From the NCBI GenBank assembly GCA_037951105.1, contig JBAMJV010008101.1, forward strand, positions 60,707 through 124,706: 64,000 nucleotides of DNA. Reading direction: 5' to 3'. The stretch is from Echinarachnius parma. Lineage: Eukaryota; Echinodermata; Echinoidea; Clypeasteroida; Echinarachniidae. Made by a program: the position numbers and the translations under genes. The notes under the pieces were generated by a model. That model ran no database searches and had not been told where the DNA came from. It was given only the letters and a program-made list of their open reading frames with translations. This document shows positions 18,786 through 59,350 of this stretch, piece after piece; the first letter of the stretch is position 1, and each line of letters opens with the position of its first letter.

Positions 18786-19169
18786 GAGTCGTATTTAAAT
18801 TTTGGCGCCTGAAAGCACGCAGCCGTATAGAGAACCCTGTACGCTGATTGTCACCATTACTGCTGAAGATGATCTTGAATGACGAAGCCTTCGGAGTAAG
18901 CTCAGCATCTAAGCTTTCTGGTTCCAGAACACCGCTAAACCTTTTCCATTTGTTACAAGAGTCACCCCCGATTGAGAACTTGTCAACGCCGTCCCCAAAG
19001 AAGAGAAAGGCTCTGTTCTTGAGAGTGTTGAAGCGCTCTACATTGACTGATACAGAGAGTTCATAGGGAACTCGGATGTCCCATAATTGGAATGAATTTT
19101 TTGGATAGTTCTTTGAGTGGTTCGGCGTTTTAATTGACCATGCTATGTCCTCCTCCAACAATACAGCAT
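18786..19169 (-). CDS. Gene A exon 4: second CUB domain
   Basis: A 384-nt internal exon, acceptor TTTTGTTACAG and donor ACTC|GTAAGT, phase 1 at both ends. It encodes a CUB domain (extracellular beta-sandwich used for protein and glycan binding). Visible hallmarks are NSFQLWDIRVP, the core turn FLFFGDGVDKFSI, CNKWKRFSG and SFKIIFSSNG. Only one Cys is seen, so the usual CUB disulfides are absent. A short tail (RRQNLNTT) forms a linker. It is very close to the exons at 38413-38805 and 54651-55046, which identifies it as copy A's CUB2. The following CUB3 exon expected at lower coordinates was not found; MITEs occupy that space, so gene A is probably 3'-truncated or its remaining exons lie further left. 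Confidence 0.8.
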
Positions 19170-20642
19170 CTGTAACAAAATAAAGTGTGGGTATTTTCAT
19201 ATATTATACCACTCACCGAGTACGCCGATGGGCTTTTATCATGAGTGTCAAAGATATCCAAAGTAATAACAACACTTATTAAAAGGATCTAGTAACTTTG
19301 TTAGCATTTGCCAAAGTGATGAACAGTAACATACTTTGTGTACATTATGTGATATGTCCTCTGAATATTGCTTGAAAATGATACGTTAAATGGATGTCAA
19401 TTGGCTGGGAAATTAGCAAACATGCAAAGTGATATTCACTAACTCAGTACACTGACTAGTTACACAGTTATGACTATCCATATTTAAGATACGAATACTT
19501 CAATCGTTAATATTGTTTTGACGAAAGAGAATTAACAGAAACAAACTGTTCCATGATGATATGATATTGATTATTCGAATACATTACGGTGCTTGAATGA
19601 TACAAAACAAATAAACGGCTAAATTACAGGGCTGTGAATGTGATGTCTGGTTAACAAATGATTTTAAAGATACATCATCAAAACTGTTTAGACAAGATTT
19701 GAGTATATCTTCAGAAAAGTATACGATGTATGTATATTTTCCTTAATAATTGAATAAAGTTGTCCTCAACATTTATTCAAATTAGATATATTTATGGATT
19801 CATTATACATGTATTCTGAACCGATTTGATCAAGTGACGAATGGTTCGTACAATGGGATATTTCAAGTATGGTGTTGATGTTAGTGTAAGTGTTAGGTGT
19901 GGAAATTCGCCTCTAATTTCGCATTCACATTCGGAGAAGGTCACGAACTTTTTGTCAACGAACATACCAAAATTATAATAAATCTTAGTATTGTTAGTGT
20001 TGAGTCAACACCAGCCAAAAGTCGTCCACATCCCACATGGCGACTTATATTCGTACATGGTCACAAATGAGACAGTAAACCTAAATAATCCGTTACAAAT
20101 ATAGGTACGATTGAAGTTTTCAGATAACAAATTATCCATTGCATTTTCGAAACCGTGTACAAAGTGAGTGCAGAGAGTGCCATTTAACTTGAAATTTTCA
20201 CACAACACCCATTGGACATAATTATCACAAACTAACAGTATATAATGTATCAACCATTCATTACTTTTTGCACATGTCAACAAAGTTACTAGGCCCTTTA
20301 GATAGTTGTTTATAATCTCTTTATTTAATCATCATTTTAACAAAACATCACATGCGCATTTTTTGTAATTAAAAATGGTTCAAGCCAATTAAGTAATAAG
20401 ACAGAGCCCTTTTGATTTTCAAAGGCTCGTTTAAACTGTACTCTCTAATCAAAACTCAACTACTCAACAAACTCAAATACAAATATGTTTACGATTATGA
20501 TTATTTGGGAAGTCGTGTCAGTTCTATAATATACATGAAGATAATAAAGTGTAACAAATGATACTTCTAACGATGTATATTTTAATACAGGAGACAGAAC
20601 GCTTGGCTTTTTAGGCGCATCTAATATTGTGATTATACATAC

Positions 20643-20677
20643 CTGCAACAGGAGTTGACGTGATATCGACTTCGAGC
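20643..20677 (-). CDS. Gene A exon 3: CUB1 microexon
   Basis: Very small exon ending GTTGCAG|GTATGT, phase 1. It encodes LEVDITSTPVA, the last beta strand of CUB1 plus a short linker. Starting at the CAG before 20677 gives entry phase 2, which fits the exon 2 donor AAT|GTAAAA of the same gene and gives NAAWLQNLPQIM followed by LEVDITSTPVA. An alternative acceptor AAG| before 20669 gives a 27-nt phase-1 exon like the ones at 43097 and 62636. Conservation with three other places in the window supports the exon; its exact 5' end is a choice between two sites. Confidence 0.5.
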
Positions 20678-20701
20678 CTGAACGATGACCGTTCGACGTC
20701 C

Positions 20702-21012
20702 ATTACCTGGTCCCCGTCAATCTAAACTACACATGGCATAAACTCTCAATTGTTAATAATTGTTACTAGTCACCCTGCTTCGTGTCGATGCAAATACCGC
20801 GATTTAACTTTATATACAAATATGTACATTGTACACTCTCAATGAGTAGGAATTGTATGGCGTTATCTTTAGTGAAAGGTGTCGAATAGTAGCGGTATAC
20901 GATGGAGGCTCGGTAAACCGTTTGTTCATTACCTGGCCCCCGTCAATCTAAACTACACTTGTCACAAACTCTAACTTGATAATATGATACAGGACAAGTC
21001 ACCCCGCTTCGT
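20702..21012. repeat. 226-bp tandem repeat, about 1.5 units
   Basis: TTACCTGGnCCCCGTCAATCTAAAC recurs at 20703 and 20929 (period 226). The same unit occurs about 2.5 times at 43381-43925 and as a fragment near 57250. It always sits just upstream of the microexon, inside intron 2. Confidence 0.7.
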
Positions 21013-21251
21013 GGTTGATTGAATAACACATGGTTACACCCCGATATCAGAATGTTAGATTCCACACGGTTAACATAGGGCGGCAATGATTTTAACATGT
21101 TATTGATGACCACGTACTGGCTAATTTAAGGGTGGCCCTCAAATACCTCGTTCTTCCAATAGTCGGTCGGAATCGTGTGTGCACTATTTTAACATTACAT
21201 CAAGAGTTTCGAGCATTTCCTACTTAATCCTTTGAAGAACGCATACATCAT

Positions 21252-21257
21252 TTTAAT
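21252..21257 (-). terminator. Possible poly(A) signal ATTAAA in intron 2 of gene A
   Basis: ATTAAA on the minus strand, about 90 nt past the in-frame TAA at 21346-21348. It would serve a transcript that does not splice intron 2. Hexamers are frequent in AT-rich DNA, so this is suggestive only. Confidence 0.25.
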
Positions 21258-21345
21258 TCTGAGATCGCATACAAAAATTGATATTATCCGTTTAAATGTT
21301 GTTATGAACATTTGAAGAATGTACTCGACTTATAGAGACCATGTT

Positions 21346-21647
21346 TTACATTATCTGCGGTAGATTCTGTAACCATGCAGCATTTGTTATGGAAACTACA
21401 TCGCTTGGTGTAATGTCGCCTGTTCGATAGTTATAGTAGAAGTAGGCTAAGCGTGTGTCTTCTCCAACTGATGAGCCATCTCCAATATACAAATAGTATA
21501 AATTTAATGATCTAAAGTGGAATCGTATTCTTCTGCCAACAGATGTACTGAAGGTCCAATATGGGTAGCTATCTCCAGACTGTTGAGCGTTGTCAAAGTC
21601 ACTTTTTGTCAGGGTAAAGTTATCATGATCTCCAAGGAAACGATGCT
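21346..21647 (-). CDS. Gene A exon 2: most of first CUB domain
   Basis: Acceptor TTTTCTTGCAG, phase 1. It encodes HRFLGDHDNFTLTKSDF, then WTFSTSVGRRIRFHFRS, the CUB core turn LYYLYIGDGSS, and SDVVSITNAAWLQ. No Cys is present. Two ends are possible. Splicing at AAT|GTAAAA (exon 21350-21647, phase 2) joins to the microexon at 20643-20677 and completes the CUB fold. Read-through instead ends at TAA 21346-21348, giving with exon 1 a complete 128-residue secreted protein (NLPQIM as C-terminus). Close relatives are 44247-44536 and 59013-59350. Codons up to 21350 are shared by both forms. Binding partner is unknown. Confidence 0.8.
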
Positions 21648-22369
21648 CTGCAAGAAAATCATGAGGAATATTGCAATTAAATTTTCATTAATAAAGAGTT
21701 AATATAGAATAAGTGAAGCTATAATTTTTGCAATTTTCAGATAAACTTCTCATTTATTTAGTACACAAACTTATTGGTAAATGGCCGTAAATGGTGCCTA
21801 AGCATGCTTAATTTGTGTTTGTATCAAGACGTAGTTTTACCAATAAAACTTTCCTATTATTGTGTCATTGTTTTTACCGTCTTGAGTAAGTTAAATGACC
21901 ATTATCTTTGACTATTTAACAATTTCTTGATTAGTTTTGCATAATTAACACCTCATCGCACAATACACTATGTTATATTGCATGATACAGCATGTTACAT
22001 AATTTATATCTTTATTCATATTACTTCCCTAATACTTCAATAAGTATTAATCTATCTTGAAGGTAATCAACATGATATCCATCTTTTTAAGCATTGTCTC
22101 TCATAAAAAAACAAGGCTTGGTTAGTTTTTAAAACAGAATACCAATTCTTCAAATTAAAAGTGATCCTTGCAAAAATAATATATTCCAAAATCAACCTTT
22201 TTATTCTAACTTAATTTTGTCGGGTCTTGAATAAATATTGTTACATCATTTGGCTGTTGCATACACGTTCACCGCTGAAATCATCGAAATTACATAATGT
22301 TACAACAATCAATCGAAAGTAGAACAAAAACATGAAAACACTCACTTCGCTTTGCTTCGAATTGTTTAC

Positions 22370-22913
22370 TTAAAGGGGTAGTTTAGTTTTGGCAAGGCTG
22401 AACTTTAGTAGCCAAAACCTGCACAGTAACATTATAAACTAATAGTTATAACTCCACCATGCTCGAAAGGTATACAAAATTACAAACGACTAAGTAAAAA
22501 GTCTGCTATCATTCAAAAAGAGCCATTAAAACACAAGAGGGCGCTTTTTAAAAAGGCATTGGTTTCAACCATTTTTCATACAAAATTATGCATGTGATGT
22601 TTTATTGATATAATGATTAAATAGCGAGATCATCAACAACTATTTAAAAACCGCTTTTGAAAATTTTTGAAAAAGTGCAAGCATTTTTAAATTTTTTTCT
22701 AAAAATCATCTAATTATTTGGGCCCCAAATAATTATAAGATCAGATATATTTATCGATATTTCAGCCGTTTCTGGGTCGATTTTGACAAAATAAAGTTTA
22801 TTCTGCCATTAAAATTGCATGTTCTCTCAAATTCGACACTCAGTTTTTCATTACCTCACAAAAAAATTGTGATGTGCAGCGCCCTCTTTACCAAAACTAA
22901 ACTACCCCTTTAA
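22370..22913 (+). mobile_element. TTAA-flanked MITE (AAGGGGTAGTTTAGTTTTGG ends)
   Basis: TTAA at both ends and inverse termini AGGGGTAGTTTAGTTTTGG and CCAAAACTAAACTACCCCT. It has a 544-bp non-coding interior and sits in intron 1 of gene A. Other copies: 30172-30702 and 57985-58546 (inverted), 57281-57856, and damaged ones near 20300-20465, 29050-29402, 36895-37474, 39000-39675 and 55798-56080. Confidence 0.85.
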
Positions 22914-23030
22914 ACATCGTTGATAATAATAACATAACATAAATGTCTAGCAAAGATTATCTAGTTAAAACCTGTTATGAGTATTATAACTGGAATGTAA
23001 CGTACATTGGAAATAACACTTGGTACTCAC

Positions 23031-23115
23031 CTTGAAACTGGAATGACGATGCGTTGAAGAATGTGGCCAGCCACAGAACAACAAACAGCAATAATCTCAA
23101 TTTTGTCTCGGCCAT
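23031..23115 (-). CDS. Gene A exon 1: start codon and signal peptide
   Basis: ATG at 23115 in a good context (GAAGATGG), 28 codons plus one base, ending CAAG|GTGAGT in phase 1. It encodes MAETK followed by the hydrophobic core LRLLLFVVLWLATFF and a small-residue region NASSFQFQ, a classic cleavable signal peptide. The exon at 45851-45935 has the same length, phase and nearly the same sequence. Joined to exon 2 the split codon becomes GAG (Glu). The 1.38-kb intron that follows carries a TTAA MITE. This start makes gene A at least a three-exon secreted CUB protein. Confidence 0.8.
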
Positions 23116-23530
23116 CTTCACATTTTCTACGAATATTCAACTCACTGAACGTCTGGATGGTTTGCCTCGGTAAATATGTTATATGTTATAATTATAGTTA
23201 ACAAGAGGGTGAGCAACGCATGAAATTAAAATATTTATAGTCGGCAAATCAGAATTAATAGACTAATACATTGACCGATCAGAGGATCCAGCAGCTTATG
23301 ACGACTACTTCAAAGGATAGTGAAGCACACGTCTATTTATCTAAACAGATCGAATCTAAAATGTTGTAGATCGCTCTTACTGCAAACTCCGGCAAAAATA
23401 CGCTCCGCCCATTGCTCGAAAATTCGATCTGTGATCAGCGCCCACGCTATGGTATAGCTATGGTCAGCCCGTATTCCTGAAGGGCGTGGGTAGGGAGTCG
23501 ATTTCCAAGAGGTGTGCAGCCCGAGTTCAA
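23116..23530 (-). promoter_or_regulatory. Conserved upstream region of gene A
   Basis: The ~400 bases upstream of the start resemble 45936-46360 upstream of gene B, including TACGCTCCGCCCATTGCT, GATCAGCGCCCACGCTA and GAGG(A/T)TCCAGCAGCTTATGA. Retention of these blocks, while introns have diverged, fits a shared promoter, though recent duplication alone could also explain it. A TATA-like CATATAACATAT lies within it. Confidence 0.45.
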
Positions 23531-23630
23531 ATAAACATTGTGTTACGAGTAAGATTAGTCATTTCTCCCAATACGTGCAGTGTAGAGGACAGTTTACCGA
23601 CATTTTTATAGAATGGGGCGGTTTGTCATA

Positions 23631-24860
23631 GAGCGGTTTCCGTAGAGGGTGCACGCAATGCACCCATTCAGTCTCATTGGCTATGCACTGCCCTCATCCA
23701 GTGCCATTGGCTACGCACGGCCACCACCAAGTCTCATTGGCCAGCACTTGCGTTCACATTCACTATTCATGTGCCTGTTGTAAGTTGATTAAATGTTTGT
23801 AGTAACCGCAAATATATTAGTAAAACAATAATTGAAGAGTCTTTATTTGGTTTTAAATGTAAAATTTGGATTTTGAATATTAATCACGTTGGTAAATATT
23901 GAGAAGTCATTCGGTCTTGAGATGCGATGATAATTATTATTATTATTTATTATTTTTGTTATTGTATTCCGTCGCATAAAGAATTAACCTATCTTTAGCC
24001 AGCTGTTTAAAATCCTTTTGTGACATAACGAAGTTTAAAGGAAAGGAAAGGAACAGTTTTTTTTTTTTTTTTTTTAGTTTAGAGGACGTTTTAAACAAAA
24101 ACAAATAACATAACAATAATAGAGTGGTGAAGTGTGATGTCATTAATGATGTCATAAACTTTTTTTTTTGAATTTTTCAAATTTGGACTTCATTTTCATA
24201 AAGAGCATAGCAAATAATGTCCAAATGCCGAAAATCAAAGGAATAGGTTACGTATTGGCTGAGATATGCCCATCCGAATGATTTTTTGTGTCAATGGGCA
24301 ATCAGTGTTATAGTGCACTGGTTCATAAATTTATGAACCAGTGCACTATAACACTGATTGCCCATTGAAGTAAAATTCATTCAGACAGGCATATCTCAGC
24401 CAATACATAACCTATTCCTTTGATTTTCGGTATTTAGACATTTTTTGTTATGCTTTTTCTGAAAATGAAGTCCAAATTAGACAATTCTAAAAAATCGTTT
24501 TTATGACGTCATGGCTTCTGTACTCTATGATAATGACAATACATAAATAAGACAATATATAAAAATACAAAACAAATGCATATTATTAACCCTAAAAAGG
24601 CCGGGGGGCCATAATGGCCCTCACCCCCCTCCGCGATTTTTTGTATTCCTCAAAAACACGGTAAGATGACGCGCCGCTGCTTGGTGACTTTTTTTTTGGG
24701 GGGGGGGGGGGGAGGGGGGGGGGGTTCTTGCGCATATTTTAAAACAAAAATTTTGAAAATCGGACCTACCGTTACGATGTCACATGACCTTTTGTCTATG
24801 CATGTCAGCCCAAAAATCGCTCTATTTCGTGATTTGTGTATAAAACATATGGCAATATCA
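23631..24860 (+). repeat. Tandem duplication, copy 1
   Basis: A 1230-bp unit starting GAGCGGTTTCCGTAGAGGG and ending ATATGGCAATATCA, repeated immediately at 24861. It contains a T run, the palindrome 24170-24490 and a G-rich run at 24698-24724. Confidence 0.9.
24170..24490. repeat. Large palindrome in duplication copy 1
   Basis: Centred at 24329/24330 (GGTTCATAAA|TTTATGAACC). Arms of about 160 bases are near-identical, running through CAGTGTTATAGTGCACTGG, GCCCATCC/GGACAGGC and GACTTCATTTTC/GAAAATGAAGTC. Confidence 0.85.
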
Positions 24861-27837: not shown

Positions 27838-27979
<142 letters not shown>

Positions 27980-28154: not shown

Positions 28155-28470
28155 TTGGTGAGTCCTGAAAAGGACTATGGTAGTCCTAGAAAGGACTGTT
28201 GGTAGTCCTAGAAAGGACTGTTGGTGTAGTCCTGAAAAGGACTGTTGGTATTCTTTCTAGAAGAGTCCTGAAAAGAACTGTTGGTAGTCCTAGAAAGGAC
28301 TGTTGGTAGTCCTAGAAAGGACTGTTGGGATAGTCCTGAAAAGGACTGTTGGTGTTCTTTCTAGGAGAGTCCTAAAAAGGACTGTTGGTACTCCTATAAA
28401 GGACTGTTGGTAGTCCTAGAAAGGACTGTATGGATAGTCCTGGATCCTATAAAGGACTGTTGGTATTCCG
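28155..28470. repeat. Minisatellite with self-complementary units
   Basis: About a dozen copies of a ~22-base unit TAGTCCTAGAAAGGACTGTTGG and variants. Each unit is itself a short hairpin (AGTCCT and AGGACT). Confidence 0.9.
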
Positions 28471-34607: not shown

Positions 34608-35246
34608 TGGGGCTTGTTAGGGTTCAGGGAATTTTTAAACATGGTAGTCCAACTCATTGTTTTTTGCAGATCATGCATTATGTGCTATAAAAGCCTAGGG
34701 AGTATCACAAACTCCAAGTTATTCTATTTTAGTTTAGACTGCGAGCTTGCAGGACTCTTATCTTCTGAAGTTGGAAGAAGATCAATGAGATCAAGGAGAT
34801 CAGAAAGATAGGGAAGGAATGATCATTCATCTCACTCTCGCATGAATGTGTGTGGCATAGCGAATCACATGCTTACTCGATTCTACCTTCTTGAATGAAA
34901 GAAGAAGATGTTAAAGAGCAAGCCTTTCTTCTTAGGCATGTTTCTTCATGTCTTCTGGAGCTTCGTAAATATGGTTGTTCGGGTCGTCAGGTTCATCAGT
35001 ACGGCTGCTGCTTCCTCGAGAATCTTACAGGTGGCGAGATTCACGGATACCGTTGAAGACTTCTGAGCCATCTCACAATCTCTTTCCTCTGCTAGCTTGG
35101 GAATAGTAACTCTTCGTCATAGATCTCGCCGGACTGCTGTCTTAAGATTTGATGACAGAACTGTCGATGATTCATTTGCTGGGAGACAATCCTTCACAAC
35201 ATAGGCATGTAAGTTGGTTGTTCGTATCTCCTGTCTAGGTCATATG

Positions 35247-35397
35247 TTAATTTGCTGTTACCACCCTCTGGTTCATATCATGTAGATGACTTTGCCGCTT
35301 CAGATACGCCCACCGGATAATGATCAGTAGATGTATGATAAGTTGTAACAGAGAAGCAGCGCTAAGAATTCGGGTAGCTAGTCCAACCTTGCTGTAG
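35247..35397 (-). CDS. Gene B last exon: transmembrane helix and short tail
   Basis: Acceptor TTTTTTGTTACAG before 35397 and stop TAA at 35247-35249. Only entry phase 2 is open, giving 49 residues: YSKVGLATRILSAAS, a hydrophobic stretch LLQLIIHLLIIIRWAYL, then a basic stop-transfer KRQ and a 17-residue tail ending VVTAN. This is the expected C-terminus of a single-pass type I membrane protein and would anchor the CUB domains at the cell surface. A decayed relative of the exon start is seen beside gene C near 53.8 kb, which supports it as a family exon. The matching donor upstream is unclear: the nearest candidate exon offers only a weak phase-2 GT, so a small exon may be missing. Confidence 0.5.
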
Positions 35398-35757: not shown

Positions 35758-35945
35758 CAGATTCTGCTGAGCTCGTTGACCAAGCATTTGGCGTTTGACT
35801 GATCGTATTGACACGCATTCACAATCTGATCTCAGAGAGGTCAATGGATGGGATGGACACGCTTGGTTTGACGACGGACGGGTTGTCACATTGGTAGTAT
35901 CTGAGTCTGTTTCAAACGGTGTTCTGGCAGTGGATACGCTTTCCT
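35758..35945 (-). CDS. Gene B candidate stalk exon
   Basis: Strong acceptor TTCTTATTTTAG before 35945; phase 1 gives a frame open for 72 codons while the other two phases stop early. It starts ESVSTARTPFETDSDTTNVT, a Ser/Thr-rich stretch with an N-glycosylation site (NVT), then ACPSHPLTSL and SDCECVSIRSVKRQ with three clustered Cys. A Ser/Thr-rich stalk between the last CUB and a transmembrane helix is a normal arrangement. The 3' end is uncertain: CTG|GTACGA at 35758 (phase 0) is the best donor, but it does not match the phase-2 entry of the next exon. Confidence 0.35.
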
Positions 35946-36261: not shown

Positions 36262-36600
36262 CTGCCGTATAGCGATCAAGAACCAGGATGCAGGGTTATC
36301 TCCGTCACTCGTGAAGATCACCGTGAGAGAAGAGTTGTACCATATCGTCTCTATTTCGCCATAGTAGTCACTTAGATGCTTCCACCCGTGGCGAACTGAT
36401 AACAAAGCTTTCGACGTCTTCCCCAATATGGAGAACATCTGCACCCGATTCCGAGTCGATTTGGAACAAATTAATCCAAAGACGAAAGTTTTAGGTGCTT
36501 GAATAAACCAAATGTTGTAGGCATTGTTGGGAGAAACTGTCGGAAAGCCGTGTGATGATAGGAACACCTGGCTGTCCGAGAGTTAGGACCTCTTCCTCTC
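36262..36600 (-). pseudogene. Gene B exon 6: fourth CUB-like domain with a frame break
   Basis: Acceptor TTTTATACAG before 36600 and donor CGGCAG|GTATGC. From phase 1 (the exit phase of exon 5) the first codons read EEEVLTLGQP, a good CUB start. The rest of the domain, however, is in another frame: VFLSSHGFPTVSPNNAYNIW, ISSTP-less middle, then WYNSSLTVIFTSDGDNP, again clear CUB hallmarks. The switch lies near 36568-36572 and corresponds to one extra base. In the second frame an upstream TAA blocks phase-0 entry. Either the copy is broken here or the sequence has a single-base error. The exit phase is 0, unlike the other CUB exons. Confidence 0.6.
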
Positions 36601-37498: not shown

Positions 37499-37861
37499 CT
37501 GTAACATTGAGTGATGTTATTATCAACCGGACACGCAAACGTCTGTCCCTATCTGGGAAGTGAATCCTGACCCAGGCCGCGTTGCTCACAGATGTTACGT
37601 CACTGGGAAGGGTTCTCCCACTAAATCGTGCCAGTCTGGTGTCATTGTCGATGTCTGGTCCATCACCGATCTCCACAGCTTCGCTGTGGTCTTTGAAACA
37701 AAGGTGCTTGAAGGAGATGCTGATTCTGTGATCAAGTGACGTGTTGAAGATCAGCGAAGTCCATTCTGAGTTCGTCGTATTAATAATCAACGTTGAACCC
37801 ATGGACCCATCCACTTCGGTAGAGATAACTAAGCTGGAATTCTCAGGAACAGAGTGATAAT
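37499..37861 (-). CDS. Gene B exon 5: third CUB domain
   Basis: A 363-nt exon, acceptor ATTTTGTAG before 37861, donor ACAG|GTAAGA, phase 1-1. It encodes YHSVPENSSLVISTEVD, then WTSLIFNTSLDHRISISF, HLCFKDHSEAVEIGDG with the CUB core turn, TRLARFSGRTLPSDV and NAAWVRIHFPDRDRRL, ending IITSLNVT. Several N-x-S/T sites fit an extracellular location. It has the same length and phases as 53947-54309 of gene C, and its C-terminal half resembles the CUB1 exons (SDV..SISNAAWLQ), so CUB1 and CUB3 are sister domain types. The frame is fully intact. Confidence 0.85.
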
Positions 37862-38412
37862 CTACAAAATAAAAAGGAGGTAGTAACATGTCTCTTGTCA
37901 GGTCAATGGCAATTTTGCCAACAGACGAATGAAATGGTTGGGCGCGAGATATGGCCCGCGTGCATATGTTCACCAAAACAGTAATACCTCACATCCATGG
38001 TTTAAGTAAGGTAAGAGATTACGTTAGCCTCAGACACAGGCTAAACATTCCTGCGACTAATGCAAAGAAATTATACAAACACATAGATATTAATTCACTC
38101 ACAATAATTGACACAATAATTTACATAACAGGTCAGTTGTACTCAATCATGTGCAAATACTAGTCGATAACAAGATGTTCTAATCTAGATCGTTAAGTAG
38201 CTAAGTATCATTTGCATCTATAAGTGGAGGATTAGACATGTAATAATAGGCATATACATTATTTATATTTTAACATAGTTATGACTCCAATATACTCTAA
38301 TATTATTTGATTAAATTCAAAGCGATATAATCAGGTATGGTGAAAATCGTATTAAAACAACTGTCACTATAATGTATCTTCTTTTATGGAAAATGTTGAA
38401 CGAAATACTTAC

Positions 38413-38805
38413 GAGTCGTGTTTGAGGAAGTATGCCGATTCTGAGGCCTGAAAGCACGCATCTGTATGGAGAACCCTGTTTGTTCATCGTAGCCATTACT
38501 GCTAAAAATGATCTTGAATGACGACGACGATGGAGTAAGCTCAGCTCCCAAGCTTTCTAGTTGTTGAACACCGCTGAACCTTTTCCACGTGCTACAAATG
38601 TCGCCCCAGATGGAAAACTTGTCTACACCGTCCCCAAAGAAGAGAAAGTCCCCAAGTTCCAGGCTGAAGTGTTCTACATTGACTGATACAGACAGTCCAT
38701 CGGGAACTCGGATGTCCCATAATTGGAATGCATTGTTTGGGTAGTAACTTGGGTAGCTCGTCGTATTGATAAAAAAGTCAGTGTCCTCCTCCATCACTAT
38801 AGCAT
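38413..38805 (-). CDS. Gene B exon 4: second CUB domain
   Basis: A 393-nt exon, acceptor before 38805 (ATTACAG), donor ACTC|GTAAGT, phase 1-1. It encodes DAIVMEEDTDFFIN, YYPNNAFQLWDIRVPDG, FLFFGDGVDKFSIWGD, CSTWKRFSG and SFKIIFSSNGYDEQ, then a Ser/Thr/Asn-rich linker RHTSSNTT. It is the counterpart of 18786-19169 and 54651-55046. The frame is intact. As in its paralogues only one Cys is present. The codon split across the junction to exon 5 is C|AT (His). Confidence 0.85.
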
Positions 38806-39679: not shown

Positions 39680-42600
39680 TTCACCCTAGTCCAATTGGTA
39701 AAACAATCTTCTTCTGGTGATTCTGCTCAGGAGCAGGTCCTTATCACCATCACACCTCTCTTCTCATGGCTCTTCTTTTAAAGTCTCCATATGGGCCATT
39801 CGTAACAGAATCCAACATCATGATGCGTTTCCTTCCTCTTGATCTCTTTCCTGGTATTCTTCCTTCCAGTACCAGTCTGAGCAAATTGTTATGTCTGATG
39901 CTGTGTGCCACCCATTTCCTCTTTCTGTTCTGGATGATTCCAATTAGTTTCCGCTCTTCTCCGACTGTCTCCAACACTCTTTCGTTGTTGATTCTATCTG
40001 TCCATTTGATTTTCAGAATGCGTCTCCAGCACCACATCTCAAAGGCTTCCAATCTGTTGATGTCTGATTTCATGATGGTCCATGCTTCAGATGCATAGAG
40101 AAGGATGCTCCATACCAGGGACTTCACTAATCTCTTTTTCAGATTGAGATTTATGCTCCGTGTGAAAAGTTCCTTCCTCTTCATGAAAGCATTCTTTGCC
40201 ATTCCAATTCTAGTTCTGATCTCTTTCGAGCATCTTCCACTTTCGCACAGCACGCTTCCCAGATACTTGAACTCTGTAACCTGTTCTAATATTTGTCCAT
40301 TAATACTGATTCTCAGGTTGGATGGCAGTTTTCCAATCTTCATCACCTTGGTTTTCTTGATGTTAATCTTCATTCCATATTGTTCGCTGGTGTTATTGAG
40401 TTGTGTTACCATTTCTTGTAGTCCTTCTTCAGTGCTCGTTATCATTGCCTGGTCATCTGCATACCGCACAGCTTGAAGAGAGCAGCCACCCACTGTAATG
40501 CAGTCTTCTACTGTTTCAAGTGCCTTATTGACCATTTCTTCTACATAGATGTTGAATAGTAGAGGTGAGAGTGGGCATCCTTGTCTCACGCCTCGTCCAA
40601 TTGTGCCTGGACTTGACTCCTCTCCATTGACTCTGATTGTAACTTCTTGGTTCATGTACAGTTCAGCAATGAGCCTTCGGTCCTTCCAGTCTACTCCAAT
40701 TTTCTTGAGTATCTCCATAAGCTTCTCCCACATCACACGGTCGAAAGCTTTCTCGAAATCAACAAAACAAACGTATATGTCTTGATTGTGTTCGATATTT
40801 CTTTCACTGAGGACCCTCATCATTGCAATGGCTTCTCTGGTACCTTTCCCTCTACGAAAGCCAAACTGATCCTCTCCTAGATATTCTTCTGCTTTTGCTT
40901 CTAGCCTACGATGTAATACTTTTAGCATAATTTTTGATGCATGTGATATTAGGCTTATAGTCCTGTGTTCTTCACATTTGTTGGTATTGGCTTTCTTCTC
41001 TATAGGAATCAGAATACTTTTCTGAAAATCAGATGGCCACTTTCCTTCATCGTACATTTTCATACAGAGTTCTGTTAGTTTTTCTTTCCCTCCTTCTCCA
41101 AGTATTTTGATCAGTTCTGATGGGATGTTGTCAGTTCCTTCAGCCTTGCCCGTTTTCAGCTCTTTCAGCGCAATTTCTATCTCTGCTTTGAGGACTGCAG
41201 GGCCAATTTCATCAACATCAAGTGCCAGCTCTTCTTCCAGCAAGATTATATCCGGCTTGTCTTCCTTAGCATAGAGCTGTTCGATGTACTCTACCCATCG
41301 TTTCTTGATGTCATCCTGTTCAGTCAGAAGCTCGCCTGTTTCGCTGAGTACCCCTTTCTGTTTTACAGCACCTTTCTTCTGTTTACACAATCTTCTCACG
41401 TGTTCATATACCAAATCATGTCGGCCTCTCTGTGCTAGCTCTTCCAGCTCCTTACATTCTTGTTTCCACCACTCATCTCTAGCCGAGTCGGTTACTCTTC
41501 TCAGTTCATTATTCAGTCGCCTGTACTCCTTCTTGGCATAATCTGTGTCCACATTTTTCTATTTCCTTCTTTCGTCCATTTTGTCTAGCATTTCCTGAGT
41601 GACCCATGGTTTTTTTCCTTTTCTTCTAGATTCCTTGCCAATATTTTGCATTGCACTAGTTTGTATGGCGTTCTTCAGTCTTTCCCATTTTTCTTCTACT
41701 GTATCAGCCCTGTCTTCATCTGTCTCCTCTATAAGAATATGTTCAACTGCCTCTCGGAACAGCTGGCCTTCTGGCCCTTTAGTCTTTTCCCGATTCCAGC
41801 ATGGTTTTCGCTTACCAATGCATATTTTCTTGAGTTTAATTTGCACCTTCGCAACTACAAGATTGTGGTCTGTGTTGGCATCTGCACCTGGGTAGGTTCT
41901 GGCATCCAGCACACTATTCCGGTATCTCTTTTTGACTAGGATAAAGTCAATCTGGTACCTACGTACATCACCTGGTTGTTTCCATGTGTATCTATGTCTT
42001 TTGGTGTGTTCGAACCAGGTGTTTGTGGCAAATAATCCTGTTCACTGACAGAATTCTGCTAGTTTGTCTCCTCTGTCATTCCTATTTCCAAGTCCGTGAG
42101 GGCCAACTACATCTCCATCTCTTCCTTCACCAAGACTCGCATTCCAATCGCCCAAAACAGCTGTGTATGTTTGTCCTTTCTCAGATTTCATAAGATCTTC
42201 AATTTCATCGTAGATTTTGTCAACTTCATCGTCAGGGTGGTCTGATGTGGGCATGTAGACCACAATAATAACAATATCAATTGGTTTTCCTTTCAGCCGG
42301 ACCAATAATAGTCTATCGCTGTGGTAGATTACTTTTGTAACACTGTCTGCTGTATCCTTGTCGAGGAGGAGTGCTACTCCTCTACTGCTTTCTGAACCCC
42401 CGCTGCTAATTACGCGTACATCATCGCTCATGAAATCATCCTGGTCCTTCCATCGGACTTCACACAGACCTAGTATGTTCAGTTGGTACCTTTCCATTTC
42501 TCTCTTCACATTCTCTAACTTTCCTCGTTGTAGCATAGTTCTCACATTCCACATTCCGATGCGTTTGTAGGGGTTTCGCTGAATGACGACCTGGGAAGCC

Positions 42601-42840
42601 CTACTTCTCCTGTCACTCCCCCTGCCGGACGCAGCATCATCAACCTGGTTGGTGATCCTGTACACGTCGTTCCCGTTATATTCATTCCTGGTGTGACGCA
42701 TGATGTTCTTGGAGATAAATACAAAAGGTGAAGTCCCCAGTCCTCTTCCAACCGCAGCAGTGCTGATCCTAATTGCAGCATTGACCCCATCCGTTAGCCC
42801 ACATTATACCTGGACTCGCATGGCATCTGAAGCTTCTGCC
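39680..42840 (-). mobile_element. RTE-type non-LTR retrotransposon in gene B intron 3
   Basis: A near full-length LINE of about 3.1 kb, same orientation as gene B, between exon 3 (43.1 kb) and exon 4 (38.8 kb). It holds one endonuclease-reverse transcriptase frame. The boundaries are estimates: the 3' end lies between the MITE end (about 39675) and the stop codon at 39750, the 5' end somewhere near 42790-42840. No target-site duplication was identified. Confidence 0.75.
39750..42701 (-). pseudogene. RTE endonuclease-reverse transcriptase, two nonsense codons
   Basis: A single minus-strand frame of 984 codons from ATG 42701 to the stop at 39750, interrupted by TGA at 42039-42041 and TAG at 41559-41561, with no frameshift. 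The N-terminal AP-type endonuclease shows RIGMWNVRTMLQRGKLENV, LCEVRW, VLGDWNASLG and a TDHNLV motif. The reverse transcriptase shows GTDNIPSELIK, FGFRRGKGTREA, CFVDFEKAFDRV, GVRQGCPLSPLLFNIY and the catalytic YADD. The C-terminal part has LEAFEMWCWRRIL and SRGRKRIMMLDS, as in RTE/BovB-like elements. There is no RNase H domain. Few lesions suggest a fairly recent insertion that has since decayed, or two sequence errors. Confidence 0.85.
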
Positions 42841-43096: not shown

Positions 43097-43123
43097 CTGG
43101 CATGGGAGTTGATATGATATCCA
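43097..43123 (-). CDS. Gene B exon 3: CUB1 microexon
   Basis: A 27-nt exon ending ATGCCAG|GTATGT, with acceptor GCTCACAG, phase 1-1. It encodes DIISTPMP, the last CUB1 strand and linker; just upstream the genomic sequence continues RDTLTV, which also fits the fold, so the acceptor could lie further up. It corresponds to 20643-20677 in A and 57007-57039 in C. In this copy the exon 2 donor appears lost, so whether this exon is still used is doubtful. Confidence 0.4.
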
Positions 43124-43380
43124 CTGTGAGCGTGTCCCGTAACAACGTCAATACTCGGCCACACATATATCCAACAAAGAAGTAGGCATTGCAAATGTCA
43201 GAGCAGTGGATGAGCAATCAACTGCAATATAAATGACGAACATTTATATCACGATTCCAATTATTAAGAAGTATGCACATATTACGATGTTAATTAGAAG
43301 GTATTGAATGACAAAATGTTTACTCTATGGTACCGAATAGCAGCGTCATACGGTAATAACTGGTATACCGTTTGTCATCC

Positions 43381-44246: not shown

Positions 44247-44536
44247 TTAGATTATTTGCGTTGACGTCTGTAACCACGCAGTATTGGATATGGAAAATAC
44301 GTCGCTTGGTAGAACGTTATAGTAGAAGAAGGCTAAGCGTGTGTTTAATTCAATGGATGAACCATCTCCAATGTACAAATTGTAGAAATAGAATGATGAT
44401 CTAAAGTGGAATTGTATTCTTCTGCCCACAGATGTGCTGAAGGTCCACCATGGTGTGACATCTCCAGCTTCATAAGCTTTCAGCACGTCACTTTTTGTCA
44501 AAGTTATGTTATCATCCTCTCCAAGGAAATAATTGT
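44247..44536 (-). CDS. Gene B exon 2: first CUB domain, ends in stop
   Basis: Acceptor CTGCAG before 44536, phase 1. It encodes NYFLGEDDNITLTKSDV, WTFSTSVGRRIQFHFRS, LYIGDGSS and LPSDVFSISNTAWLQ, then TSTQII and TAA at 44247. Where gene A has the donor AAT|GTAAAA, this copy has AATCTAAAA, so the GT is gone and the stop is exposed. With exon 1 it would give a 124-residue secreted single-CUB protein. If so, the downstream CUB exons of B can only be reached through another splice path, such as an alternative donor not recognised here. N-glycosylation site NIT is present; there is no Cys. Confidence 0.8.
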
Positions 44537-45850: not shown

Positions 45851-45935
45851 GTTGGAACTGGCATGACGATGCGTTGAAGAATGTGGCCAGCCACAGAACA
45901 AAAAACGGCAATAATCTCAAATGTGTCTCGGCCAT
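45851..45935 (-). CDS. Gene B exon 1: start codon and signal peptide
   Basis: ATG at 45935 in context GAAGATGG, 28 codons plus one base, donor CAAC|GTGAGT in phase 1. It encodes MAETHLRLLPFFVLWLATFF and then NASSCQFQ, a signal peptide nearly the same as gene A's. Differences include Pro in the hydrophobic core and a Cys in place of Phe after NASS. The junction codon with exon 2 is CAC (His). Intron 1 is about 1.3 kb and carries the MITE at 44695-45281. Confidence 0.8.
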
Positions 45936-46360
45936 CTTCGCTATTAAAAATCTAAATCTCACTCGATGCTTGGAATGATCACTTCATATATATGTTATAC
46001 GATAGGGCGATCAACGATCTAACTTAAATCTAATCAACAAGTCAGTTCAACAGACTACATTGGCCGATCAGAGGTTCCAGCAGCTTATGATAATTTCATA
46101 CAAGTCTTAGATGAATGGTGAGTTTTGAAACGGGATGCCCCAGCGTGCCTCTCTATATCTATACGAATTGAATCAAACATGTTGCTGATCGCTCCTTATA
46201 CTGCAAAATCCGGCAAGCTGATATACGCTCCGCCCATTGCTTGACATATCGATCACTGATCAGCGCCCACGCTACAGCCATGGTCAGACCGTATTGGGGA
46301 TTTGGGAGCAGAGAGAGAGAGATCCAGAGAAGTGTGCAGTCTGGGTTAAATTACATATTT
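45936..46360 (-). promoter_or_regulatory. Conserved upstream region of gene B
   Basis: Paralogous to 23116-23530. A TATA-like CATATATATG on the minus strand at 45985-45994 lies about 50 bases upstream of the start codon, a workable spacing for a short 5' leader. 46361-47084 holds nothing recognisable. Confidence 0.4.
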
Positions 46361-52290: not shown

Positions 52291-52339
52291 TTGCGTACAT
52301 TGCCAAGGCAAACATTCCATCATGTACAGAGTTGGCTTT

Positions 52340-53322: not shown

Positions 53323-53348
53323 TTTCATTTCATTTCATTTCATTTTAT
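53323..53348. repeat. CATTT microsatellite
   Basis: Five units of TTTCA, followed by AT-rich sequence without a gene up to 53780. Confidence 0.8.
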
Positions 53349-53789
53349 TCAGTTCCACAAAAAGGGGAACATTGATTTGGCAAGTTGCTACATGAGAAAT
53401 ATACATGGTAAAAACAATTAAATTTACAAAACAATAAATATGACTAGTCTACATATACATACAATCTACATACATAACTAGCAGTCTACCACGAAAAACA
53501 GATCATTAAATTACATGTAAATTGCACTGGCACAAAGGAGTCAATAGATTCAAAGAGAGAAGAGGGAAGAAGAATGATAGAAGAAGAATAAAGAAGAATG
53601 ATAGAAGAAGATTAAAGATTTACGATAGCAGTACTCAATAAAATAGAAAAGTAGTACATAGTATTAAATGCAGTGGAGCCTCCACACAATAAGCACTATC
53701 ACAAAGCTGTAACATAGCAGACAACCTTAGGGCCAAGCAGCTCCTCAATAAGGGCTCTAGATTACTTCGCCACTAATTTATACACACTC

Positions 53790-53880
53790 ATTCGAAGAAA
53801 ATCAGAAGATGGAGAGAGCGCCGCTAAATATCGTGATTCGGGTAGTTAGACAACAATGCTAGGTAACAAACCGTGGTAGC
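53790..53880 (-). pseudogene. Gene C: decayed transmembrane-exon relic
   Basis: The minus strand reads TTTGTTACCTAGC, then AACTACCCGAAT and TTTAGCGGCGCTCTCT, aligning with the acceptor and first ~45 bases of the gene B last exon (TTTGTTACAGC ... AGCTACCCGAATTCTTAGCG). The frame is broken by an in-line TAA and the hydrophobic part is not recognisable. It lies under 100 bases from the CUB3 exon, implying loss of the CUB4 and stalk exons in this copy. Confidence 0.35.
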
Positions 53881-53946
53881 ATTGGTCTAAATTTGTAATA
53901 CAATTTATACAAAAGGTATTACAGTTTGGGAGTGATGTTACCTTAC

Positions 53947-54309
53947 CGGTTTAAATCACTGACGTCACTATCATTCGAACATGCAGAAGTCTGTCACTAT
54001 TCGGAAAATGAATCTTCATCCAGGCGGCGTTGCTCACTGAAAATACGTCAATGGGAAGAGTGCTCCCGCTAAATATGGTTAGCCTGGTATCCTGGTCCAT
54101 TTCAGATCCATCGCCGATCTCTAAGATCTCGCTGTTGTCTTTGAAACAAATTTGTTCGAAAGAAATGCTAATTCTGTGATCGGGCGACGTGTTGAATATC
54201 ATCGAAGTCCATTCTGCGATTGTTATACCGATAGTCATCGTTGAATTCATGAATATGTTACTTTCGGTAGAGATGACGAGGCTGGAATTCTCAAGAACAG
54301 AGTAATAAT
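53947..54309 (-). pseudogene. Gene C exon 5: third CUB domain with premature stop
   Basis: A 363-nt exon, acceptor TTGTTTTGCAG before 54309, donor ACCG|GTAAGG, phase 1-1, same length as 37499-37861. It encodes YYSVLENSSLVISTES, WTSMIFNTSPDHRISISF, QICFKDNSEILEIGDGSE, TLPIDVFSVSNAAWMKIHF and HVRMIVTSVI, then TAA at 53951-53953, two codons before the donor. The paralogue has GTT (Val) at that codon. The domain itself is complete, so a shortened secreted protein remains possible, but any exon beyond would be out of reach. With the nearby transmembrane relic, loss of membrane anchoring looks likely. Confidence 0.7.
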
Positions 54310-54650
54310 CTGCAAAACAAAACGACGTAGTAAAATATATTATATAAAAGTGACAAAGGTGACACTTTGTTTAACATAATGCTCGCGCATTAAGGGTATG
54401 TTACGTTCCGCGCCGTATTCATACTTAATACGTTACGTTCATTGATGTGAAGTATACGTTTGTTATTGTATATATTTACACGGAGATTTATAAAAGATTT
54501 TGTAGCATTTAACGATTATAATCATTCACAATAATCATTCAAATTTATTTTGAATGATTAATTATTATTTTATACTGAATACTGAGTATATATAACTTCC
54601 ACTTTGTTCTAATGTATGCATCCATGCACAATGTTGGGTTTTAAACTTAC

Positions 54651-55046
54651 GAGTGACGTTCGAAGAAGTAGACCTATTTTTAGGACTGAAAGCACGCATC
54701 CGTATGGTAAACCCAATTCTGGAAAAGTAACCATCACTGGTGAACATAATCTTGAATGACGATGCCTTCGGTGTAAGTTCATCTTCCAAGCGACCTGGTT
54801 TGCGAACACCGCTGAACCTTTTCCAATTGTTACAGAAGTCACCCTCGATGGAAAACTTGTCTACACCGTCCCCGAAGAAAAGAAAGTCGTAAGCAAGTTC
54901 TGTATTGAAGCTCTCTACATGGACCAATACAGAAAGTCCATCGGGAACTCGTATGTCCCATAGCTGGAAGGCGTTGTTAGGATAGTTGCTTGGGTGATTT
55001 GGCGCATTGATGGAGAAGTCAACATTCTCCTCTAACAGTATAGCAT
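54651..55046 (-). CDS. Gene C exon 4: second CUB domain
   Basis: A 396-nt exon, acceptor TTATTACAG before 55046, donor ACTC|GTAAGT, phase 1-1. It encodes DAILLEENVDFSINAPN, NYPNNAFQLWDIRVPDG, FLFFGDGVDKFSIEGDF, CNNWKRFSG and SFKIMFTSDGYFSR, and a linker STSSNVT with an N-glycosylation site. It is the longest of the three paralogous CUB2 exons by one codon over B and four over A, mainly in the linker. The frame is intact. Confidence 0.85.
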
Positions 55047-55797
55047 CTGTAATAAAAAAAAAAGTGTGGATATGTTCCATATGATTTACCTTCCAACGAA
55101 ATAAAACGAGTTTAAATATATTCAAATATATCCAAGTTTACAATTAATTTCATTAAACAAAAACAATAACGAGAATAATTATGTATGTTATTAAAGATAC
55201 ATTATCAATATGTTTGATTTTATCAAAATAATGTGCATATTCATTCGTGTTCGGATAGTTATTAAATAACTACATCATTCTGGTGGTTCATGTGAGTTGT
55301 ATTGCTGAACATGCAAACACAAAATGCAACGATAATGTTAATACATTGCAAAGAAGATCATTAATTTAGTCTGACATAACATATCATATTTAACATAAAT
55401 TATTGACATAGGTAAGCACTATGATTTGGACGATCGAATATACTTTAGATGTATGTAATTATTCTCAATATAATCTCATAACACAAATACTTGTAAGAAC
55501 AGTAAAGACATACATTCATAAAACATGCAAAACTAACTGAATATAATTATAGAATAATGTAATATTAACATACACGTAATAATACATAACTAGACGAACA
55601 TAATATTGTTGACAATTTCACAAACAATATTATTTTAACCCTAGTAAGGCCGGCGGTCATTTTGTCCCTGCAGCTTCGTGATTGTTTTCATTCAAGTCTT
55701 GCGCATCTTTGAAATCAAAGTTTGCGAAAGTCGAGAGTGACCTTTTGTACTTGCATGTCAGATTGAAAAGTGCTTATATTCGTGAAACTTGTGGATA

Positions 55798-56080
55798 TGT
55801 TGAGTTGAGTTTTGGTAAAGAGAGTACTTTTTGGTCAAACTGACTTTTAGTAACCAAAAAACCTGAATCATTATACTGTAATAGTTATAACCATTACAAA
55901 TGACTACGTTAAACGTGCCGTTAAATCTCAAAAGAGCGCTCTCTAAACAGTCATCGGTTTCGCCCATTTCAAATAAAATACATTTATGCTCTTGCAAATT
56001 TAACACTCAGTTTGTCATTAGCTCACACAAGATATTATGTGTAATGCCCTCTATACCAAAACTTAACTTTTCATTTACCA
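55798..56080 (+). mobile_element. Internally deleted TTAA MITE (22370 family)
   Basis: Family ends GAGTTTTGGTAAAGAGAGTAC and CTATACCAAAACTTAACTTTT with most of the middle missing. 56081-57000 holds no gene. Confidence 0.5.
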
Positions 56081-57006
56081 TTGGTTATTTGGTTTTGCTT
56101 GAATTAATCTTTGTTTGGTGGCTCAAAATAGTTGAATTACAATGAGGAATACAATACAACTACAAAAATAATAACATCCATAAGAAAACAAAGAAGTACA
56201 TACTACATTTTCCAAACAACAAATACAAAAGATAAGAAATACTCTAGCTCTTCGAATTATTTTTTTTTATTGTTTTTTCAAATGGTCTAAAGAATATATG
56301 TGAACAAAAATGTTTAATCATTCATAATAATTATACGAGTTATGGGCAAAATGTTCAATTATATGACCTTAATTGCGTAAATTACTATATCCAAACGAGT
56401 GATTTCTAAAAAAAGAAAACCGTTGCTAAGTTGGCCTTGTTTTCAATTAAGGTATTTGACAAGGGCTGAACAGAGTTATATTGCAGTTAGAAATGAAGAA
56501 ACATAACTACAATAAAATACGTAAGAAGTGTTCTAAACTATTATAAAGCATACAAAATACATTTGCTTTTCCAATTATTTGTGTTGTATAATTATTTCAA
56601 ATGGTCTTATGTAGTAAAACGTAATGTTAAATCACACAAAATAGACATGCGAATTATGGGCAAACTATGAATTGCATGACCTCATTTGCAAACATAACCA
56701 TTCATATAGAAATGATTGATTACAAGCAATTATTTTACCATTGTATTCTTTTCACTTTATTCGACATACGTGCAGGTTTTTCGGCGATCAGGCTTTTTAC
56801 AATTAAGGAGTGCTTGAGATACTAATGGTCTCTAGAAAGATTTTATATGTAAATAACTATACAAAAGGAGGCAATGCATAGAACGAGACGTAACGTTGGG
56901 TGCAAATGAATGTCAAATACTGCTTGTAAATAGATGGAATATGCAGCCGTTTGGAATCATTTTATATATAAAATTAGTGTATAATTATATTAAAGAAATA
57001 ACATAC

Positions 57007-57039
57007 CAGCAGGAGTTGATGTGACATCGACTGTAAGAT
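57007..57039 (-). CDS. Gene C exon 3: CUB1 microexon
   Basis: A 33-nt exon, acceptor TTATCTTATTTAG before 57039, donor GCTG|GTATGT, phase 1-1. It encodes LTVDVTSTPA plus a split Asp. Joined to exon 2 at TTAG|GTAAAT it gives KVSL-D-LTVDVTSTPA, a natural end for a CUB domain. A second AG (TTACAG before 57030) would give a 24-nt exon at the position used in B. Homology with three other sites supports it. Confidence 0.5.
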
Positions 57040-57280
57040 CTAAATAAGATAAGCCCAATACATAAACAAATATATATATATTGTCAGTAGTCGATGCGCA
57101 ATCAACAACGATACTAACGATGTAAATATCACAATTACACTTTGTATACAAATATGCAAATGTAACTATTTTAATTCGAACACATGTTCTGGTGACATTT
57201 TGGATAAATGTGTCAAATACGAGTGGATTTACAATTTAGTGTAAACAGATTGTCAACCATTATATGGTCGCCGTCGAACC

Positions 57281-57856
57281 TAAAGGGAAAGTTCAGTTTT
57301 GGTAGAGAGAGTACTGTTTCGGTAAAACTGAATGTTAGTAACCCAAACCTTCACCATTATATTAAAAACTAACAGTTATAACTCCACCATGCTAAAAGCA
57401 ATACCAAATTACAAATTACTAAGTAAAAGCCTGTTATCATGAAAAAAGAGCCGTTACAACTCGAAAGGGCACTCTCTCAAAACTCATTGGTTTCATCCAT
57501 TTTAAATAAAATATTGTGCATGTGATGTTTTGTTGAAATAGTGCTTCGATAGAAACATAATAAACAACTATTTACAAACCTCTTTTGTACATTTTTGAAA
57601 AAAGGAACCTTTTTTTAAATAATTGTTTTAACTGCTGGTTTAAAATTGTGTTATAATTGTGGGGCCCCACATGTATTACTTATGGTTATGTTTATGGATA
57701 TATATCCGCCATTTCTGAACTGATTTGGATAAAATAAAGTTTATTCTGGCATCAAAATATTATGTCCTTTCAAACTTGACACTCAGTTTACCTCATTCCC
57801 TCACAACAACATTATTTTGTGTAGCGCCCCATACCCAAACTCAACTACCCCTTTAA
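57281..57856 (+). mobile_element. TTAA MITE (22370 family), gene C intron 2
   Basis: Family copy with ends AAAGGGAAAGTTCAGTTTTGG and CAAACTCAACTACCCCTTTAA. It is inserted in the region that corresponds to the 226-bp tandem repeat of genes A and B. Confidence 0.75.
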
Positions 57857-57984
57857 ATACACAAATAGGCGTACCAAGGAGGGGGAGGGGGTTCACCCAC
57901 GTTACCATTTTCAACGAGTCTTGATAACACTTTGTAGCGGTCTCGACCATCATAACCACTGGTCTCGGGCCCCGAGGGCACAAC

Positions 57985-58546
57985 TTAAAGGGATAGTTGA
58001 GTTTTGGTAGAGAGGGCGCTACACATAATATTTTTTTTCGTGAGATAATGCAAAAATGAGTTTAAAATTTGAAAGAGCATAATATTTGAATGACAGAATA
58101 CACTTTATTTGATCCAAATCGGTTCAGAAACGGTTGAATTATCCATAAATATAACAATTTGTAATAAAGCTGGGGCTCCAGGTTTATTAGAGAATTTTGA
58201 ACCAACCGTTAAAAATTCAAAAAAATGCTTCCTCTTTTCAAAACGTTACAAAATAGGTTTGTTAATAGTTGTTGGTTATTTCTCTATCTAATCACTATTT
58301 CAACAAAACATCACATGCACAATATCTTATTCAAAATGGTTGAAACCGATGAGTGTTTCGAGAGCGCCCTCTGACGTTTTAACGGCTCTTTTTGAATGAT
58401 AACATGATCTTTACTACGTCATTTGGAATGTTGTGTTCCTTTCAAGTTATAACTATTAGTTTGTAATGTAATGATGTAGGTCTTGGTTACTAAAATTCAG
58501 TTTCACCAAAACTGTACTCCTTACCAGAACTCAACTATCCCTTTAA
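57985..58546 (-). mobile_element. TTAA MITE (22370 family), inverted, gene C intron 2
   Basis: Complete 562-bp copy with TTAA on both sides, opposite to the copy at 57281; the two lie 128 bases apart and could form a large hairpin in the intron. Confidence 0.85.
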
Positions 58547-58967
58547 CAATTGGTCTCGGTCTCGGCCTACATATTTTATACGGATCCCGGTCTCGGCTTC
58601 GAATATTTTGGACGCTTACACGTCTCTAAACCAGTGAGCTCGGCCACTGCCTCTGCCATGTTTGCCGACGAAATAAGAACCCCACGACCTTAATACTGGG
58701 TACGCCTTTGACTACAAGATTCACAAACAAAACAAATTCGGGACCGACCACCCTGCCTCCTGGTATATAACACCAAGATTAGAATGACAGATTCCGCATG
58801 ATAAGCCCAGGCCGTCTATGACTTCAATATTATATTGATGATACCGTTTTGACTTATGAAGGTGAGGAATAAACCTCCGGTTTGTCTAATTGTCGGTTTG
58901 ATCATGCGATGTTTACACGAATTACAAGTTTACATTTCGAACTAAATGTCTTAAAATAATGTAGTTT

Positions 58968-58973
58968 TTTATT
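58968..58973 (-). terminator. Possible poly(A) signal AATAAA after gene C exon 2
   Basis: AATAAA on the minus strand, about 40 nt beyond the in-frame TAG at 59013-59015 that is met if intron 2 is not spliced. Confidence 0.3.
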
Positions 58974-59012
58974 ATCAATTCTGAAATCGCATTTAGAAAG
59001 TATATAAATTGT

Positions 59013-59350
59013 CTATACAGATGTTGCAATAACAATTACAAAGGTTAATTTACCTAAAGATACCTTGTGCAGGGACACCTGTAACCACGCAGCATTTGAT
59101 ATGGACAGTACATCGCTTGGTAAGTCGTCATTCCAGAACCGAACGAGGCGTGTGTTATCTCCAGCAGCTGGACCATCTCCAATATCCAAATACCCGTAAT
59201 TGAATTCAAATGTTCGAAAGTCGAATCTTATTCGTCTGCCCACAGATGTGTTGAAGGTCCACAATTGTGTGTGGTCTTTGGCCTGATAAGTGTGCACCAC
59301 GTCAATATCCGTCAGCGTAATGACATCACCACTTCTAAGGAAATAGTGGT
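59013..59350 (-). CDS. Gene C exon 2: first CUB domain
   Basis: Acceptor TTATCTTGCAG before 59350, phase 1. It encodes HYFLRSGDVITLTDIDV, WTFNTSVGRRIRFDF, YLDIGDGPAAGDNTRLV, LPSDVLSISNAAWLQ and VSLHKVSL. Two endings are plausible. The donor TTAG|GTAAAT (exon 59054-59350, phase 1) leads to the microexon at 57007. Read-through continues GKLTFVIVIATSV to TAG at 59013, supplying a last beta strand by itself, with AATAAA 40 nt further. No signal-peptide exon was found between this exon and the right edge, unless the chain continues from the 62.64-kb microexon. Confidence 0.8.

Follow-up and report, generated by a model that had tools for sequence, protein, structure and literature searches.

A 64,000-nucleotide (nt) stretch of the genome of the echinoid Echinarachnius parma (contig JBAMJV010008101.1, or C8089, positions 60707-124706; hereafter, the window) carries three blocks of exons on its minus strand that encode CUB domains. 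We consider it probable that the window cuts through a tandem cluster from a large, lineage-expanded family of type I membrane CUB recognition receptors. The contig is 124,706 bases long in a 1.2-Gb assembly, and the window ends where the contig ends; window positions, used below unless noted, are contig positions minus 60706. The three blocks, A, B, and C, are portions of three family members. With a neighboring gene, D, there are at least four tandem family genes on this contig, and the 60 kb on the far side of the window hold further family exons in unchanged orientation. The original prediction, made from the letters alone, had described the blocks as sharing exon order, lengths, phases, splice sites, and reading frames. 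The exons are real: the CUB2 lengths (384, 393, and 396 nt) and CUB3 lengths (363 nt in both cases) were exact, and the phases were as described. The rest of the shared layout holds in part: the 85-nt signal exon is present in A and B but was not found for C, B has an altered microexon acceptor and frame shifts, and C has an in-frame TAA.

Gene A is intact, both as a whole and in the part that lies inside the window. Its exons there are as follows.

23031..23115, minus strand: gene A exon 1, encoding the signal peptide, 85 nt, phase 1 out
21350..21647, minus strand: gene A exon 2, CUB1 (type a), two possible phase-2 donors
20643..20677, minus strand: gene A exon 3, microexon of 35 nt, final strand of CUB1
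18786..19169, minus strand: gene A exon 4, CUB2 (type b), 384 nt, phase 1-1

The alternative CUB1 donors lie at 21374 (exon/intron, TG/GTTACA, common to B and D) and at 21350 (AAT/GTAAAA, in A only), and the microexons were recognized by eye from a shared STP motif. Gene A extends past the window to contig position 38030; its CUB1 and CUB2 are followed in order by CUB3, CUB2b, CUB3b, CUB2c, CUB3c, CUB4, a Ser/Thr stalk, and a transmembrane and tail exon. The full model has 12 exons with GT-AG borders throughout and a single open frame of 1205 amino acids (aa), or 1213 aa with the alternative CUB1 donor. The predicted protein has a signal peptide, 8 CUB domains, a Ser/Thr stalk, a transmembrane helix, and a tail with the motifs YMPM, YLFP, and YEAP. 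The model of gene D has 10 exons and is open over 907 aa, again with a signal peptide, a transmembrane helix, and the conserved tail, which is 71% identical to that of A over 158 codons; one damaged CUB3-like exon of D, with no acceptor in the right phase, was excluded from the model. The family architecture of signal peptide, CUB ectodomain, helix, and tyrosine tail is shown by gene models, and the cell-surface role, an inference in the original prediction, now rests on these models. All CUB2, CUB3, and CUB4 exons of both genes have a length of 0 modulo 3 and phase 1, so that CUB pairs could be gained or lost with the frame unbroken. The signal exons of A and B were the sole two on either strand of the window to pass a joint filter on hydropathy and donor score. 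Upstream of them lies a conserved block (23116-23540 in A and 45936-46360 in B, minus strand), a candidate shared promoter region.

The reading of these exons as CUB domains held against the Pfam profile PF00431 for some of them and not for others. Taken alone, the CUB2 exons scored 32-37 bits (E 6e-9 to 1.3e-7) and passed the curated cut-off of 21.4, whereas the a-type exons were near the cut-off, below it, or without a match. The full gene A product matched CUB at E 1.9e-49, in seven stretches for the eight predicted domains. The fold itself was borne out by an AlphaFold2 model of B CUB3 (predicted local distance difference test score, pLDDT, of 75), which gave full-length matches to the solved CUB domains of TSG-6, PCPE-1, and neuropilin. 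For the echinoid relative P0001 the structural matches are also CUB and count as support only, since the model is poor (pLDDT 43). Four conserved cysteines in two disulfides are common in CUB domains, although not universal. This pattern was not seen in the seven window domains counted, each of which has 0 or 1 Cys, and Lytechinus CUB domains have 0-2. Calcium-binding acidic residues are a further feature associated with CUB domains (PMC6954182). By domain, CUB1 and CUB3 are of type a, and CUB2 and CUB4 of type b. In a domain tree the a/b split was supported at 100/100; the support bearing on the a-b doubling, which may or may not fall within this lineage, was 83/33.

Pfam found no astacin, EGF, SRCR, TSP1, F5/8, MAM, or LDLa domain in gene A. 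This bears on the source names of the echinoid relatives (tolloid-like protein 2, bone morphogenetic protein 1-like, and DMBT1-like), by which the family would consist of secreted tolloid/BMP1-like or SRCR proteins. With astacin, EGF, and SRCR missing from A, and a helix and tail present, we regard that assignment as extremely improbable.

Searches of the assembly against itself bore out the expectation of further copies. A CUB1 query matched 157 times, a CUB1-CUB3 query 123 times, and a tail query 154 times; these counts are lower bounds, as 150 of 395, 113 of 945, and 150 of 346 candidates, respectively, were scored. On C8089 itself, the rows listed for the CUB1 query are one CUB1 exon from each of A, B, C, and D, with no CUB3 exon among them. 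Another contig, C7515, has 11 CUB1 matches, every one on the plus strand, interleaved nearly 1:1 with tail matches. Two other contigs, outside the family by the queries used, are also rich in CUB sequences: C11645 has about 10 evenly spaced CUB exons of near-equal score, some 1.7 kb apart, and C378 carries numerous CUB half-domains on a single strand.

Two protein searches, in which the best-sharing candidates were scored (7990 of them against the family profile), gave only ten relatives at E ≤ 1e-5, of which nine are echinoid (two of these being query rows) and one is an unnamed ENA fragment. Together with the many copies in the genome, this agrees with the earlier suggestion of a lineage-specific expansion with no named family. 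By sequence, the closest known relatives appear to be unnamed two-CUB sea urchin receptors of about 30% identity.

Unnamed echinoid relatives: LOC121431790, LOC121431779, and LOC121431769 (Lytechinus variegatus); LOC135155651 (L. pictus); XP_011670765 (S. purpuratus)

The LOC121431790 product matched the joined B query at E 5.3e-24, with invariant columns common over CUBa and CUBb. These relatives likewise have a signal peptide, CUBa followed by CUBb with the same conserved segments, a Ser/Thr linker, a helix, and Cys-poor CUB domains. They differ in having a single CUB pair, and they amount to ten database proteins overall. Their tail motifs YETIP, GYMIP, and HTYL/HTYH recur in long tails in E. 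parma; YETIP, GYxxP, and HTYL/HTYH are present on both sides of the Lytechinus comparison. We found no paper naming the echinoid loci in open-licence literature listings.

Block B, which keeps the full exon plan with four CUB domains, is most likely a pseudogene: its microexon acceptor is altered, frame shifts affect both CUB4 and the stalk, and six stops interrupt its tail match.

45851..45935, minus strand: gene B signal-peptide exon, 85 nt
44275..44536, minus strand: gene B CUB1 exon, to the donor common to A and D
43097..43131, minus strand: gene B microexon remnant, acceptor AG of A and D altered
38413..38805, minus strand: gene B CUB2, 393 nt
37499..37861, minus strand: gene B CUB3, 363 nt (AlphaFold2 model, pLDDT 75)
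36262..36600, minus strand: gene B CUB4 (divergent type b), frame shift near the start
35758..35945, minus strand: gene B Ser/Thr stalk exon, frame-shifted versus A and D
34935..35397, minus strand: gene B transmembrane and tail exon, decayed, six stops versus A

A view of B as lacking its CUB1 donor was dropped once gene D placed the common donor of all three genes (A, B, and D) at an earlier site; what is damaged in B is the acceptor of the microexon. The CUB1-CUB2 intron of B contains a non-LTR (long terminal repeat) retroelement (39750-42803, minus strand) with endonuclease and reverse transcriptase regions (Pfam RVT_1 at 9e-41 and Exo_endo_phos at 1e-5) and two in-frame stops. Over 602 aa, its reverse transcriptase frame shows 100% identity with a protein from an ENA contig of 3,539 bases.

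Block C runs towards the contig end and is incomplete in the window. Its frame stays open from CUB1 through CUB3 before reaching a TAA.

59054..59350, minus strand: gene C CUB1 exon, 297 nt, phase 1-1 (Pfam 21.3 bits)
57007..57039, minus strand: gene C microexon, 33 nt (best of 8 in-frame solutions)
54651..55046, minus strand: gene C CUB2, 396 nt
53947..54309, minus strand: gene C CUB3, 363 nt, in-frame TAA directly before the donor

A signal exon for C was not found and may lie past the contig end. No stalk or tail for C was found between its CUB3 and gene B.

The damage in B, the TAA in C, and the one damaged exon of D could be taken to mean that the array is mostly decaying, with a majority of pseudogenes or assembly duplicates and few working genes. 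Equal-score rows in the CUB1 search suggest haplotype pairs among the copies counted, which would fit the second half of that view. Nonetheless, A and D are open over their joined models, an internal stop was seen in only one CUB1 row among the matches listed, and the CUB2 exons carry the mark of constraint described below. We consider a mostly decaying array very unlikely, and return to the reading of the family as working receptors.

The tails divide into short and long forms. In the first 29 tail-query rows the match spans helix and tail over most of its length; later rows mostly show the tail unit only, within longer open frames (up to 1240 codons) and often with several matches per frame. 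YMPM, the kind of motif bound by PI3-kinase, occurs in six of seven stop-free short tails examined (A included) and is YMPL in the seventh, and all seven have YLFP-like and YEAP-like sites. Many tails are giant exons, and in the two that were read, each in part, tyrosine modules repeat: L053 has 33 Tyr in 1047 aa with 207 repeated 8-mers, and L054 has 17 Tyr in 583 aa with 12 repeated 8-mers. Self-BLAST of these two tails gave no internal pair, and the repeats rest on the 8-mers and on the multiple tail matches per frame.

CDCP1 (Trask/CD318) is described as having a CUB ectodomain, one helix, and a tyrosine-rich tail phosphorylated by Src kinases, and the model of gene A shows the same plan of CUB ectodomain, helix, and tyrosine-rich tail. 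Moreover, the Pfam profile CDCP1_CUB_6 (PF23665) matched gene A at E 5.8e-6 and 26.3 bits, just under the cut-off of 27. The motifs, domain number, and copy number differ, and by analogy CDCP1 would be the nearest working model; we do not claim membership. An alternative reading is a family of CDCP1-like receptors for cell adhesion, development, or regeneration, with a copy number due to drift and dosage. It is, however, unusual for adhesion receptors to form such large tandem arrays and to have a fast outer domain, and we think such a role rather improbable. Neuropilin and Neto, to which there are structural matches, likewise have tandem CUB domains on a single-pass receptor; they differ in the F5/8, MAM, or LDLa domains that Pfam did not find in A.

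Constraint is uneven along the ectodomain. The pooled ratio of nonsynonymous to synonymous differences (pN/pS) was 0.70 (0.51-0.94) for CUB1 in 24 sequences, these being A-D and 20 exons hand-picked among the best-scoring of the 157 matches. It was 0.41 (0.33-0.51) for CUB2 in 24 of the 28 best matches, the 4 with stops being excluded, and 0.60 (0.47-0.77) for the tail in a set of 8 tails, where 1 of 8 loci was excluded for a stop. CUB1 evolves faster than CUB2, with the intervals touching, and its variation is placed between the invariant or near-invariant segments TSVGRRIRF, IGDG, and SNAAW. In 9 of 10 full-length Lytechinus pairs, CUBa is likewise less conserved than CUBb. This pattern is consistent with a variable binding domain on a fixed scaffold, and relaxed constraint is also compatible with it. 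We do not claim positive selection on CUB1: six pairs gave a mean w of 1.02, but once 24 sequences were used the median was 0.65.

A variable outermost domain would also suit receptors of gamete recognition or allorecognition, carried on eggs, sperm, or body cells, in which CUB1 would set mating or fusion compatibility. CUB1 is indeed the fastest domain, and CUB repeats occur in an echinoderm gamete receptor, the sea urchin egg bindin receptor EBR1, described as an ADAMTS-family protein with CUB and TSP1 repeats (PMC9265791). EBR1 differs in those TSP1 repeats, of which Pfam finds none in gene A, and the copy number and signaling-type tails are more usual in immune receptors. We therefore rate a gamete or allorecognition role as unlikely and prefer a receptor family that may serve in immune or self/non-self recognition.

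Several observations weigh against that preference. No member is both complete and intact inside the window. Some copies are probably haplotype pairs, as the equal-score rows indicate, and the gene number could be about half. The CUB1 sample was selected by hand, and relaxed constraint is as good a reading of CUB1 as diversifying selection, given a pN/pS below 1 and an interval touching that of CUB2. The Lytechinus trend is opposite in 1 of the 10 pairs and in the part-length pair P0006-P0008. In L053, YxxP occurs 7 times against a shuffled mean of 2.6, an excess that is modest since the maximum of 2000 shuffles was 9. Finally, neither the B pieces nor the P0001 tail gave a significant helix or tail alignment with the window, only short motifs, so that the likeness to Lytechinus tails is one of motif resemblance.

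Huge repertoires of innate receptors are a known feature of echinoderms, whose TLR, NLR, and SRCR immune families are very large and tandem. The present family differs from these in its domains, with a CUB-only ectodomain and repeated tyrosine modules. SRCR and NLR families in echinoderms are mentioned in a genome paper (PMC13228809). Neither term-matched passages of three echinoderm genome papers nor the open-licence listings searched describe a CUB receptor family of this size that is modular on both sides of the membrane. We tentatively propose, with somewhat less than even confidence, an undescribed germline-diversified echinoderm recognition system: on the order of 100 tandem genes with a variable CUB1 and gene-specific numbers of CUB pairs and phosphotyrosine modules. 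In the most likely mechanism under the preferred reading, a member would enter the secretory route by its signal peptide and display an N-terminal CUB1, alternating CUB pairs, a divergent last CUB4, and a Ser/Thr stalk above one helix and a tyrosine tail. CUB1 would bind member-specific ligands, probably surface molecules that are microbial, parasite-derived, or of a self/non-self kind. Clustering of the receptors would then let Src-type kinases phosphorylate the tail, which could recruit SH2 proteins, namely PI3-kinase via YxxM and Crk- or Nck-type adaptors via YxxP. Avidity and signal gain would be tuned by how many CUB pairs lie outside and how many tyrosine modules lie inside.

Other features of the window lie apart from the family. 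A 22-base palindromic unit, TTGGTAGTCCTAAAAAGGACTG, forms a tandem array at 28155-28442, and arrays of a 16-base unit (GGAATAACGAACCTTC or its complement) stand in opposite orientations at 61454-61672 and 61802-61991. A run of 97 G at 17648-17744 is possibly an assembly artefact. Open frames overlap on both strands at 7577-7949, the minus-strand frame being without a Pfam match. Rfam and tRNA scans of the whole window found nothing. The COX1 gene of the assembly has 14 in-frame TGA codons, AGA at Ser sites, AAG at Lys sites, and AAA at the conserved second Asn of RMNNMSFWL, and is read in the echinoderm mitochondrial code, which is also used by flatworms.

If the germline-diversified system is real, then specificity, avidity, and signaling gain would all evolve through the duplication of exons and modules. 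The family provides concrete genes, exon borders, and motifs that can now be tested for immune, allorecognition, or gamete roles, and it offers a clear case of exon-phase symmetry underlying receptor diversification.

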